A stretch of DNA of 24,967 nt from the IMG/VR virus record IMGVR_UViG_3300037010_001852, positions 1 to 24,967 of that record; one strand, 5' to 3'. Of this stretch, positions 2,726-23,339 are shown piece after piece. The notes beneath the pieces are model-generated. The model was not told where the DNA came from and made no database searches. It was given only the letters and a program-made list of their open reading frames with translations. The stretch comes from a virus. Made by a program: the position numbers and the translations under genes. Position 1 is the stretch's first letter; each line of letters starts with the position of its first letter.

Positions 2726-3705
2726 AGTGCTTGTTTTAATAAAGGTAATAATATATCTCTAACTTTATCAATACCATGTTTTGCTACTGAATCAGATAAA
2801 TCTTTTTCCATAGGAAGAACAACATAACTAAAATTATATTTATGTTTATATCTTTCAGCAGCTTTGATACCAGGTTCATCATTATCAAATAGTACAATTA
2901 TAGATTTATAACTTTTACTAAGTTTGTTAATTATAGTTTCTGAAATCATAGTATTCTCACTGTCTGGTGCTATACATTCTGTATTAACTATTTTAAGTTT
3001 TTGAAATACCATAAGATCTTTTAAAGAAGAAGTTATAATTAAATAATCTTTTTCATAACTTATTTGATCAAGACCTTGTACATAATTTTGTACTTTAATG
3101 AATTTTTTATCAGAATTTTTTGGCATATAAACTTTATACAAAGAACCATCATTTCTAAAATAACCATAAGTATATGGTTTTTCAAATTTAAATAAAAGTA
3201 TATTACCATCTATATCTTTTTTTTTCATTGTAAAATACTGCAATGGTGATACATTATAATGCTCAAGTAATTTAGAACCAATTTTAAATCTTGTCCAATA
3301 TTGTTGATCTATTGTGTTCCAATGTCTTATTTCATGGTCAACTACTTTAAATTTATCATGAATCTTAAACTCTCTTTTTTCAAAAAAAGTATTATTAGCA
3401 AGAAAGTCTTCATAATCAGAAAGTATTTTATTTACTGCATTAGCCCTAGTTGGCATATTATATAATGCTTTAACTAATTCTATTGTATCTCCTTGAATAC
3501 CAGATGAAAAATCTTTAAACTTATAGTATCCTGAAATTGTATCTGTATAAATACACATTGAAGGTACTTTATCTTTTGAATTAAAAGCAGACAATATTTT
3601 TACATCTTGTCCTGTAAGTTTTTCTTTTAAATTTAAATAATTTTCAAAAACCCATTCTCTAGGAACATCACTTAAATCTGAAATTATGTGTTTAGTTGAA
3701 ATCAT
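2722..3705 (-). CDS. DNA primase, DnaG-like with Toprim domain
   Basis: The N-terminus has a zinc-binding-domain-like segment without the zinc cysteines: FNSKDKVPSMCIY followed by GYYKFKDFSSGIQGDTIELVKALY, the fold seen at the front of phage DnaG primases. The Toprim part is near residues 220-310: DYLIITSSLKDLMVFQKL, then IIVLFDNDEPGIKAAERYK and PMEKDLSD. The usual acidic residue of the E-G-x-x-D motif is Ser here (ITSSLKD), while DNDE is intact. At 327 aa it is short for a full primase. It should make RNA primers with the DnaB-type helicase encoded upstream in the same block. Confidence 0.75.
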   Translation of the reverse strand: MISTKHIISDLSDVPREWVFENYLNLKEKLTGQDVKILSAFNSKDKVPSMCIYTDTISGYYKFKDFSSGIQGDTIELVKALYNMPTRANAVNKILSDYEDFLANNTFFEKREFKIHDKFKVVDHEIRHWNTIDQQYWTRFKIGSKLLEHYNVSPLQYFTMKKKDIDGNILLFKFEKPYTYGYFRNDGSLYKVYMPKNSDKKFIKVQNYVQGLDQISYEKDYLIITSSLKDLMVFQKLKIVNTECIAPDSENTMISETIINKLSKSYKSIIVLFDNDEPGIKAAERYKHKYNFSYVVLPMEKDLSDSVAKHGIDKVRDILLPLLKQAL

Positions 3706-21512: not shown

Positions 21513-21760
21513 TTCATATAAGTTTAATTGGTTACATTTTAAAAATAGCAATGGTAGAACCTTTCTTTATTCTACATTTATGAAGCCATAATGACCAGAC
21601 TCTTATCTATCTGCAGAGCCATTGCTATTAGTTTTAATACTCTTGGGTTACGCACATTAGTATCCATAGTGCCGATGTCTGGTTACATCTTCAAGGTTTT
21701 TCACCTATGTGTAGTTCAAATACTACACTACTAATCCCTCTGTACTCAATATGCATATCC

Positions 21761-21863
21761 TAAATATTTACATCACAAATATATTAAGACCTTAAGTGGT
21801 CAAGTACAAGTACTTATATTTTATAAATATTTATCACGAATATGTTAAGACACTAAATGGTCA
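21761..21863. repeat. degenerate direct repeat of about 40 bp
   Basis: Positions 21761-21802 and 21824-21863 share TAAATATTTA, then TCACRAATAT, then TTAAGACM and GGTCA; they differ by a 2 bp gap and a few bases. In both copies GAC and GTC flank a short AT loop, so each can form a small hairpin. Confidence 0.75.
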
Positions 21864-22275
21864 CATATTGTCTACCCTTGGGAAGTAGAAATGGTACATT
21901 ACTAATAGACATTATTGTTTAGTCTATTGCTTGTAATCAGGATTTCTGCCTGACCTATAGGATACTACCCTAATTATAATTATTTTTTTATTCTGTAATC
22001 TGTTCCTATCATTAGTTCAAGGATACTGATTAGTAAAATTTTAAAGATTTCGGAAATACTAATATTGCTTCTATCATAGAGAGAAACAATACTAATAGTA
22101 ATAGTTATAGATATAGTAGAGAACTCATATGTATTTAGCTATATAACATATATTATATGACTTTATTCCAAATCTGTTAGTACTCTTACTACTAAAGATA
22201 TGGTGAGAGTTTTATTCTCAAACATCCTGTAACCCTTATACACACTGACTTACAGAACTTTTATCAAAATATTTT

Positions 22276-22368
22276 ATAATACTTTTAAGGTGACCGTAAC
22301 CTATTGTTACAGCCACAGAATATGTTTGGGAGACCCTTTGGGTGACCGCAGATATCCAAAAGTATTAT
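22276..22368. ncRNA. candidate structured RNA, 93 nt
   Basis: ATAATACTTTT (22276-22286) and AAAAGTATTAT (22358-22368) form an 11 bp closing stem. Inside, GGTGACCG occurs twice (22289-22296 and 22341-22348) and the two copies can pair as GGT/ACC with one mismatch. GTAAC/GTTAC (22296-22300 and 22306-22310) and CCC/GGG (22334-22342) form two arms. A cassette-type promoter element lies just right of it (minus orientation), but on the plus strand the stem is followed by CTTTTTATT, so orientation is not settled. Confidence 0.4.
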
Positions 22369-22380
22369 CTTTTTATTGTG

Positions 22381-22415
22381 CTTTTAAATACATTTTTAAG
22401 CCTTTCCGAAGGAAA
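22381..22415 (-). promoter_or_regulatory. early-type promoter element with upstream hairpin, copy A
   Basis: CTTTTAAATACA (22381-22392) matches the element upstream of the early cassettes (TGTATTTATAAG on the minus strand), and after exactly 10 bp comes the triloop hairpin TTTCC-GAA-GGAAA (22403-22415). No gene follows; on the minus strand the element points at the 93 nt structured candidate. Confidence 0.55.
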
Positions 22416-22425
22416 TAAGAGTAAT

Positions 22426-22461
22426 AACTGTTACTTTTAGGTATGAAAACTGTTACTTTTA
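22426..22461. repeat. 14 bp direct repeat AACTGTTACTTTTA
   Basis: The sequence occurs exactly at 22426-22439 and 22448-22461 (22 bp period). Two helical turns of spacing suggests adjacent protein sites on one face of the DNA, next to promoter element copy A. Confidence 0.75.
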
Positions 22462-22534
22462 CAAATTCTACATTTTGTAACTACTTGGTTTTCAATACCA
22501 AAGTCACATAGTTACACACGGTGGATACAAAAAA

Positions 22535-22562
22535 AAATAGTGCATATCTCTATGCACTATTT
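22535..22562 (-). terminator. strong rho-independent terminator
   Basis: AAATAGTGCATA and TATGCACTATTT form a 12 bp perfect stem with a 4 nt loop (TCTC on plus), followed on the minus strand by nine T's. It closes the 22572-22946 cassette. Confidence 0.9.
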
Positions 22563-22571
22563 CTTTATGAC

Positions 22572-22946
22572 TTATGCCATTTCAAAATCATCAAAAGAAA
22601 TTTCTTGTCCTTTAACAAATGAACTTAACATAATCCACGGTTGTCTACGTGAGCCGTCTTCATTAGGTTCTTTATTAAGAGTAATTTTCCCTAAATAATT
22701 TTTACCTAATTCCATACCTTTATCATATGAAGTTTCATAGATAACACAACGGTCTGTGGTAGTTTCTTCCCCATTAAGGTCTTTGAAAGACATAGTGGCA
22801 AGTTTATAAAACACGGTATCCTTTGTAACAGGAGATACATATTCAAAAACTTTGTCACTAATGGATAATAATTTACCACTAATGTTAGCATTGCTAACAA
22901 CATTTCCAAGAGAGGTTGTCTCTTCAACAAATTTTAATTTAATCAT
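22572..22946 (-). CDS. putative SSB-like early protein, 124 aa
   Basis: The protein has several strands (NISGKLLSISDKVFEYVSP, VFYKLATMSFKDLNG, NYLGKITLNKEP), a likely OB or similar beta barrel. It ends in ISFDDFEMA, an acidic aromatic tip like that of SSBs. The strands and tip are suggestive only. It is a single-gene cassette with a palindromic operator-like leader and a strong terminator, as expected for an early gene. Confidence 0.6.
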   Translation of the reverse strand: MIKLKFVEETTSLGNVVSNANISGKLLSISDKVFEYVSPVTKDTVFYKLATMSFKDLNGEETTTDRCVIYETSYDKGMELGKNYLGKITLNKEPNEDGSRRQPWIMLSSFVKGQEISFDDFEMA

Positions 22947-22960
22947 ACCTTATAGTTTTT

Positions 22961-22982
22961 AAATAAACAACGTTGTTTATTT
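22961..22982. promoter_or_regulatory. 22 bp perfect palindrome in leader (operator-like)
   Basis: The left half AAATAAACAAC is followed by its exact reverse complement, with CG at the centre. It lies between the cassette promoter element (22989-23000) and the start at 22946. A dimeric regulator site is the simplest reading; an RNA hairpin in the leader is the alternative. Confidence 0.7.
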
Positions 22983-22988
22983 TATGTA

Positions 22989-23023
22989 CTTATAAATACA
23001 GTTTAAAGCCTTGCCGAAGGCAA
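22989..23023 (-). promoter_or_regulatory. early promoter element with upstream hairpin, copy B
   Basis: CTTATAAATACA (22989-23000) is followed after 10 bp by TTGCC-GAA-GGCAA (23011-23023). Compared with copy A the hairpin has a compensatory T-A to G-C change, with loop, spacing and flanking AAGCC and ATAAGAGT conserved. It points leftward to the 22572-22946 gene. Confidence 0.6.
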
Positions 23024-23064
23024 TAAGAGTGAACATTTTTACTTGTGTATTTTTATAAAAGAAA

Positions 23065-23084
23065 AAAGGGAATTTTTTCCCTTT
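23065..23084 (-). terminator. rho-independent terminator
   Basis: AAAGGGAA and TTCCCTTT form an 8 bp stem with a 4 nt T loop, followed by TTTC on the minus strand. It lies 9 nt beyond the stop of the 69-aa gene at 23093. Confidence 0.8.
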
Positions 23085-23327: not shown

Positions 23328-23339
23328 CTTATAAATACA
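23328..23339 (-). promoter_or_regulatory. early promoter element (TGTATTTATAAG)
   Basis: The minus-strand TGTATTTATAAG lies 25 nt upstream of the 23302 start. The same 12 bases occur before 22946 and 24065, and with variants before 23855 and the structured candidate at 22.3 kb. The preceding cassette's terminator hairpin lies 12-15 nt upstream. Confidence 0.65.

Follow-up and report, generated by a model that had tools for sequence, protein, structure and literature searches.

A triloop hairpin kept as a structure at two putative early promoters across many phages, with indications that it acts as DNA

A short hairpin stands just upstream of two putative early promoters, P1 and P2, in the 24,967-nt stretch of viral DNA analyzed here (the window), and strong comparative sequence evidence indicates that it has been kept as a structure at these promoters across many phages. 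We put the probability at roughly 55% that the hairpin acts at the DNA level as a component of two special early promoters, similar to the hairpin promoters of phage N4 in how it works, without being of the N4 family.

Two hairpins in the window

The initial annotation described two triloop hairpins at an equal 10 bp spacing to promoter-type elements, and this description is exact. On the plus strand, TTTCC-GAA-GGAAA (22403-22415) and TTGCC-GAA-GGCAA (23011-23023), 13 nt each and differing by one compensated pair, both have a perfect CTTnTAAATACA at a distance of 10 bp (22381-22392 and 22989-23000), and fall within a 72-nt direct repeat of 78% identity. Perfect 5-bp triloop hairpins number 91 in this AT-rich DNA (27% G+C), versus about 60 expected, while CGAAG occurs only twice in the 25 kb, in these two hairpins. 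In random sequence, the probability per position is 3.8e-4 for a 5-bp triloop hairpin containing G/C, and 2.5e-6 for one with the loop class seen in the window.

All genes neighboring the hairpins are on the minus strand, so each hairpin is located upstream of its promoter element, with the GAA loop on the template strand and TTNCC-TTC-GGN'AA as the coding-strand form. In the direction of the genes, the order is the terminator of the previous cassette, upstream repeats, the hairpin, GGCTT, the core TGTATTTA(T/A)AAG, and the leader. We read the core as a promoter from its position and repetition. The features are as follows:

23063..23082, minus strand: terminator belonging to the cassette before P1, distinct from the P1 hairpin
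23011..23023, minus strand: P1 hairpin, coding TTGCC-TTC-GGCAA, template (plus) strand loop 5'-C-GAA-G-3' (from sequence and covariation with relatives)
23006..23010, minus strand: P1 GGCTT box, directly after the hairpin base
22989..23000, minus strand: putative P1 core promoter element TGTATTTATAAG, common to the hairpin-less early cassettes at 23328 and 24090
22572..22946, minus strand: gene behind P1, 124 aa, predicted SSB/PriB-like OB fold (AlphaFold2 models and Foldseek)
22528..22569, minus strand: terminator of the 124-aa gene, upstream of P2
22403..22415, minus strand: P2 hairpin, coding TTTCC-TTC-GGAAA (from sequence and covariation)
22398..22402, minus strand: P2 GGCTT box, directly after the hairpin base
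22381..22392, minus strand: putative P2 core promoter element TGTATTTAAAAG, common to hairpin-less early cassettes
21552..22380, minus strand: leader or noncoding region after P2, about 830 nt with no minus-strand ORF of at least 40 aa, followed by the early/replication operon

Two further kinds of repeat were observed upstream of the hairpins. Operator-like direct repeats, about 22 nt apart, lie upstream of the P2 hairpin in the window (22426-22461) and in the relative L113 (about 3470-3520). A dyad, CCACCGTGTG ... GTTACAAAA, is conserved between the terminator and the hairpin promoter (window 22466-22530, minus strand); which of the two promoters it accompanies depends on the phage, as it is upstream of P1 in L105 and L111 and upstream of P2 in L118.

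Recurrence and covariation in relatives

Relatives were gathered from viral contigs by means of the downstream 124-aa protein and the SF2 helicase. Eleven sequence groups carry the hairpin element at the two corresponding sites: P1, which precedes the 124-aa gene, and P2, which lies beyond this gene at about 0.5-0.6 kb from P1. Representative hairpins are:

L055: GATGC-TAC-GCATC and ATTCC-TAC-GGAAT
L072: ATTCC-TGC-GGAAT
L116: TGGCT-TTC-AGCCA and TGCCTT-TTC-AAGGCA
L122: AGCCTT-TTC-AAGGCT
L118: GAGCC-TTT-GGCTC
L104: TTGCGC-TGC-GCGCAA and TTCCCC-TGC-GGGGAA
L106: TGTTGC-TGC-GCAACA
L109: TAAGCC-TGC-GGCTTA
L111: TGTTCC-TGC-GGAACA
L112: TGTTGC-TTC-GCAACA
L113: TTGTTGC-TCC-GCAACAA

There are exceptions to the common form, with a 4-nt loop in L118 P1 and L106/L107 P2, and stems of 3-4 bp in L111 P1 and L112/L113 P2. 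In every element a GCTT or GCCTT box follows the hairpin base, with at most 1-2 bases between. The core after the box differs between phages and is common to other early cassettes of the same phage. The hairpin is found at P1 and P2 and is absent from the other core/early promoters of the same contigs, where other triloop hairpins containing G/C are few and mostly terminators. The suggestion that the terminator hairpins of other cassettes double as this element did not hold up, since their distance varies, their loops are different, and they contain G-U pairs.

The initial annotation took the single exchange between the two window copies as covariation, and concluded that the fold matters. From two copies, with one pair changed, this argument was weak; with the relatives added it is strong, as the 19 distinct stems are all Watson-Crick, and an attempt at refutation by seeking non-compensatory stem changes in the relatives failed. 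The compensatory step can be seen directly in close pairs. The P2 hairpin of the closest relative, L009, is TTCCC-TTC-GGGAA, where C-G replaces the T-A of the window, a third pair type at that position, and L116 and L122 differ at P2 by a compensatory swap of T-A to A-T.

For a statistical test we used a loop-anchored alignment of 21 distinct triloop elements, because MAFFT on longer stretches misregistered the hairpins. Paired cells amounted to 98.1%, versus 57.2 +/- 3.7 in shuffled alignments (reached in 0 of 500), and 42 cells were changed on both sides, versus 12.5 shuffled, with double changes in all five pairs; kinship of the sequences inflates these shuffle contrasts. The covariation score was 1.07, compared with 0.26 shuffled and at most 0.25 in the slid control, which retains relatedness. 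We also scanned the viral collection with the downstream box and core of one group only, leaving stem and loop free. Ten of the 11 matches were in five contigs of the family, two per contig, and all ten were preceded by a perfect 6-bp hairpin; the eleventh was a chance match in an unrelated GC-rich coding region.

These data also bear on the idea, which we consider quite improbable, that the inverted repeat is a double-stranded DNA binding site for a dimeric phage regulator at P1 and P2. The repeats upstream of P2 (AAAGTAACAGTT, present twice in the window, and AGTTAACCATGG in L113) could be operator-like. However, a dimer that reads half-sites would keep sequence rather than pairing, whereas the arms change freely with pairing kept, and even differ between P1 and P2 of one phage (TTGCGC and TTCCCC in L104). 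Moreover, it is the 3-nt loop class that is conserved.

Other features of these promoters were seen in some groups. At certain hairpin-less early promoters, an ACCATAnTG motif directly precedes the core (L111 2330, L112 2591, L116 2041), and a similar motif precedes the hairpin at P1 and P2 of the same phages, as if the hairpin had been inserted. By eye, the proposal that an extruded hairpin restores the motif-to-core spacing of the hairpin-less promoters was unsupported, as 6-11 nt are left over. In two groups (L104-L111 and L112-L114), the core is followed by a G-run (GAGGG, GTAGGGG, GGGAGTGGGG) at P1 and P2 but not at promoters that lack the hairpin.

DNA or RNA hairpin

The hairpin could be needed in DNA or in a transcript. 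On the template strand, 24 of 27 elements, from 10 of 11 groups, have a GNA or GNNA loop, and 21 of 27, including both window hairpins, combine this loop with a closing C-G pair and a second G-C pair; the other loops are CTTG, AAA and TTTA, and three elements have a closing T-A pair. Loops of the GNA and GNNA type, when two or more G-C pairs accompany them, form extraordinarily stable DNA mini-hairpins (PMC4686876). The stems of 3-4 bp all carry GC-GNA-GC, where extra loop stability would be most needed, although one of the two 3-bp P2 stems was checked with standard DNA parameters and was not predicted to be stable. No G-U pair was found among 102 stem pairs, whereas G-U makes up 4-9% of the pairs in these phages' terminator hairpins (p between 0.04 and 0.0003 according to how many inner pairs enter the count; the elements are not fully independent). 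This is expected if DNA, not RNA, must pair.

An RNA-level hairpin, formed when upstream transcription crosses the site and serving as a second intrinsic terminator, a stabilizer of the 5' leader or a processing site, appears unlikely to us. RNA folding energies are fair for most elements, and in L005-L008 the P1 hairpin precedes CTTTTTTT, so that a GCCTT-CGGC-AAGGC fold with a T run behind it can form. However, the sites are already preceded by a true terminator, most P2 sites are without a T run (GGCTTAAAAATG, AGCTTCTAAC, GGCTTTCTGGCC), and most elements are followed by AGGCTT or AGCTT rather than by the U run of an intrinsic terminator. The lack of G-U pairs also speaks against this reading, as do the 3-bp stems of L112 and L113 P2, which would not fold as RNA. 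In the window family, the alternative register GCCTT-CGGC-AAGGC folds as well or better, but it is not kept in other groups, and we rejected it as the conserved fold. Nor does the conserved C-TNC-G loop have an RNA reason, and the pairing of a UNCG RNA tetraloop is impossible on GC-TNC-GC stems. Together, the loop class, the 3-4 bp stems, the missing G-U pairs and the exclusion of UNCG favor DNA over RNA, as judged from sequence.

Genes behind P1 and P2

The 124-aa protein behind P1 likely has an OB fold. In two AlphaFold2 models (pLDDT 85 and 75), SSB and PriB OB folds made up most of the best Foldseek matches, with E values of 0.003-0.1 and low TM scores; from these models, the protein may have SSB function. 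It had no Pfam or PHROG match, and no relatives were found in the collection of named phages or in genome contigs. Because the host SSB aids N4 hairpin promoters, it is suggestive to find a gene for an SSB-like protein behind a promoter of this sort.

The leader behind P2 had no Rfam, tRNA, Pfam or PHROG match. Blocks of it are conserved in relatives (GCGGTCA, GGGTTACAGGATGTTTGAG, and GGTCAGGCAGTTGTAA ... TTACAACTGAGTGCAGAGGG), and long noncoding leaders also follow P2 in L055 (2650-4640) and L073 (2660-3890). Behind the L055 leader is a 461-aa ORF that by eye resembles a TROVE-domain protein, as annotated in crAss001; with such an ORF there, a Y-RNA-like role for the leader is conceivable. 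No further convincing core element was found on the minus strand of the window after P2, and P2 may thus drive both the leader and the replication operon.

The nature of the P1 gene raises another explanation, to which we give little credence: that the hairpin is a single-strand initiation site or an SSB/primosome-loading site for DNA replication and its promoter position is incidental. Stable GNA hairpins occur in single-strand phage origins. The P1 product resembles SSB/PriB, and hairpins with repeats near a noncoding region are origin-like. Against this, the hairpin stands at two places, both of which precede a transcription unit and keep a near-constant distance to a core promoter element.

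Polymerase and phage affiliation

In crAss-like phages the early genes are transcribed by a virion enzyme (PMC10136315, PMC7886860), the type to which phi14:2 gp66 belongs. The phages studied here appear to resemble the crAss-like phages in having a Crassvirales-like gene set, with Sak4, DnaB, primase and SF2 helicase genes in the window, and giant ORFs in long relatives. The window helicase is closest to those of Flavobacterium and crAss-like phages (24-31% identity). They differ in that the hairpin element was not found in crAss001, Flavobacterium phage Fpv20 or the searched half of phi14:2.

The initial annotation proposed a search for a large polymerase gene of the DFDxD type. Of 11 long relatives, 10 contain giant ORFs matching phi14:2 gp66, which is of the two-barrel type, and several of these ORFs carry the DFDxD motif; these polymerase-carrying relatives have 73-85% helicase identity. 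The same 11 long relatives yielded two pattern matches for the hairpin, neither of them a hairpin, and no polymerase gene was found in the hairpin-bearing contigs, which are at most 41.5 kb. As hairpin and polymerase gene were never on the same contig, the link between them is one that we infer. PF00940 (T7-like polymerase) had no match in the contigs, nor in the control. We found no promoter rule for a crAss-type virion RNA polymerase in the papers that we consulted.

Comparison with N4 and other systems

The likeness to N4 is closer than the initial annotation knew, extending to the strand, the 5-7 bp stem and the loop class. Exactly three hairpins with a C-TNC-G coding loop and a stem of at least 4 bp are present in the first 9 kb of N4 (positions 95, 564 and 4553); they immediately precede gp1, gp2 and gp15, and we take them to be the three early promoters, N4 P1-P3. 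Both N4 and most elements here have a short perfect stem of 5-7 bp with a 3-nt loop; both have the template loop 5'-C-G(A/G)A-G-3', beside early genes and few per genome. L112 P1 contains the 13-nt N4 P1 hairpin letter for letter, which may be coincidental, given a few dozen variants.

In N4, extrusion requires the closing C-G pair and the 5' G and 3' A of the loop, the polymerase reads the -11 purine, -10G, -8G and +1C of the template, and the host SSB assists the hairpin promoters (PMC4496689). N4 hairpin promoters are active only on single-stranded or supercoiled templates. The extrusion features are kept in 21 of our 27 elements. In contrast, the full set read by the polymerase (-8G, -11 purine) is found in three of 27, the window having -8C, and the N4 start (+1C on the template, 11 nt from the loop centre) has no counterpart here in a conserved G; at this position the coding strand has T in the window and the relatives inspected. 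Thus we do not see the N4 start rule, which places a G some 11 nt downstream from the centre of the loop. That extrusion features are kept while reading features and start G are not argues that the hairpin is conserved as a hairpin, for another reader. P1 and P2 differ in several groups at the pair adjacent to the closing pair (GC in P1, CC in P2), a sequence difference that might let a reader distinguish the two.

There are other differences from N4. The GCTT box lies at a constant distance from the stem base, whereas the distance from the loop centre varies with stem length; the core element, which other promoters use by itself, is supplemented here by the hairpin; and the polymerase of this group is expected to be two-barrel, whereas that of N4 is T7-like. 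The P1/P2 hairpin is most likely functionally convergent with the N4 hairpin promoters and, on present evidence, not a member of the N4 family. The d(GCGNAGC)/GNNA mini-hairpins share the loop class and G-C closing pairs with 21 of 27 elements, but are a physical class of DNA rather than a gene-regulatory system. Phage P23-45 has a two-barrel virion polymerase with an AT-rich early promoter motif (PMC10770324), but this source mentions no hairpin.

Discussion

In the model that we favor, P1 would drive the gene for the SSB/PriB-like OB-fold protein, and P2 the long noncoding leader, probably together with the replication operon that follows. When the incoming DNA is negatively supercoiled or partly single-stranded, a hyperstable hairpin would be extruded from the template strand, immediately upstream of the GCTT box and the core. 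This hairpin could expose or mark the template for a polymerase carried by the phage, expected to be a two-barrel virion RNA polymerase of the crAss type, possibly assisted by SSB as the host SSB helps N4. Other cassettes presumably have a working core without a hairpin, so the role of the hairpin would be to set how strongly or when a promoter fires, not its basic identity as a promoter, and the hairpin promoters may be the class that fires first.

The reader of the hairpin is probably the two-barrel virion RNA polymerase or an SSB-like protein. More tentatively, and as a possibility that we rate well below even, this could be a second, independently evolved hairpin-promoter system, in which a two-barrel virion polymerase, without kinship to the T7-like enzyme of N4, selects extruded template-strand hairpins, and the SSB-like product of one of the first genes fired may act on them.

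A structural element at two defined promoters across many phages provides a testable handle on promoter choice by the crAss-like polymerase. If the hairpin acts at the DNA level, DNA hairpins would have arisen as promoter signals at least twice, probably with unrelated polymerases, which would suggest a general way for polymerases to begin transcription on incoming phage DNA.
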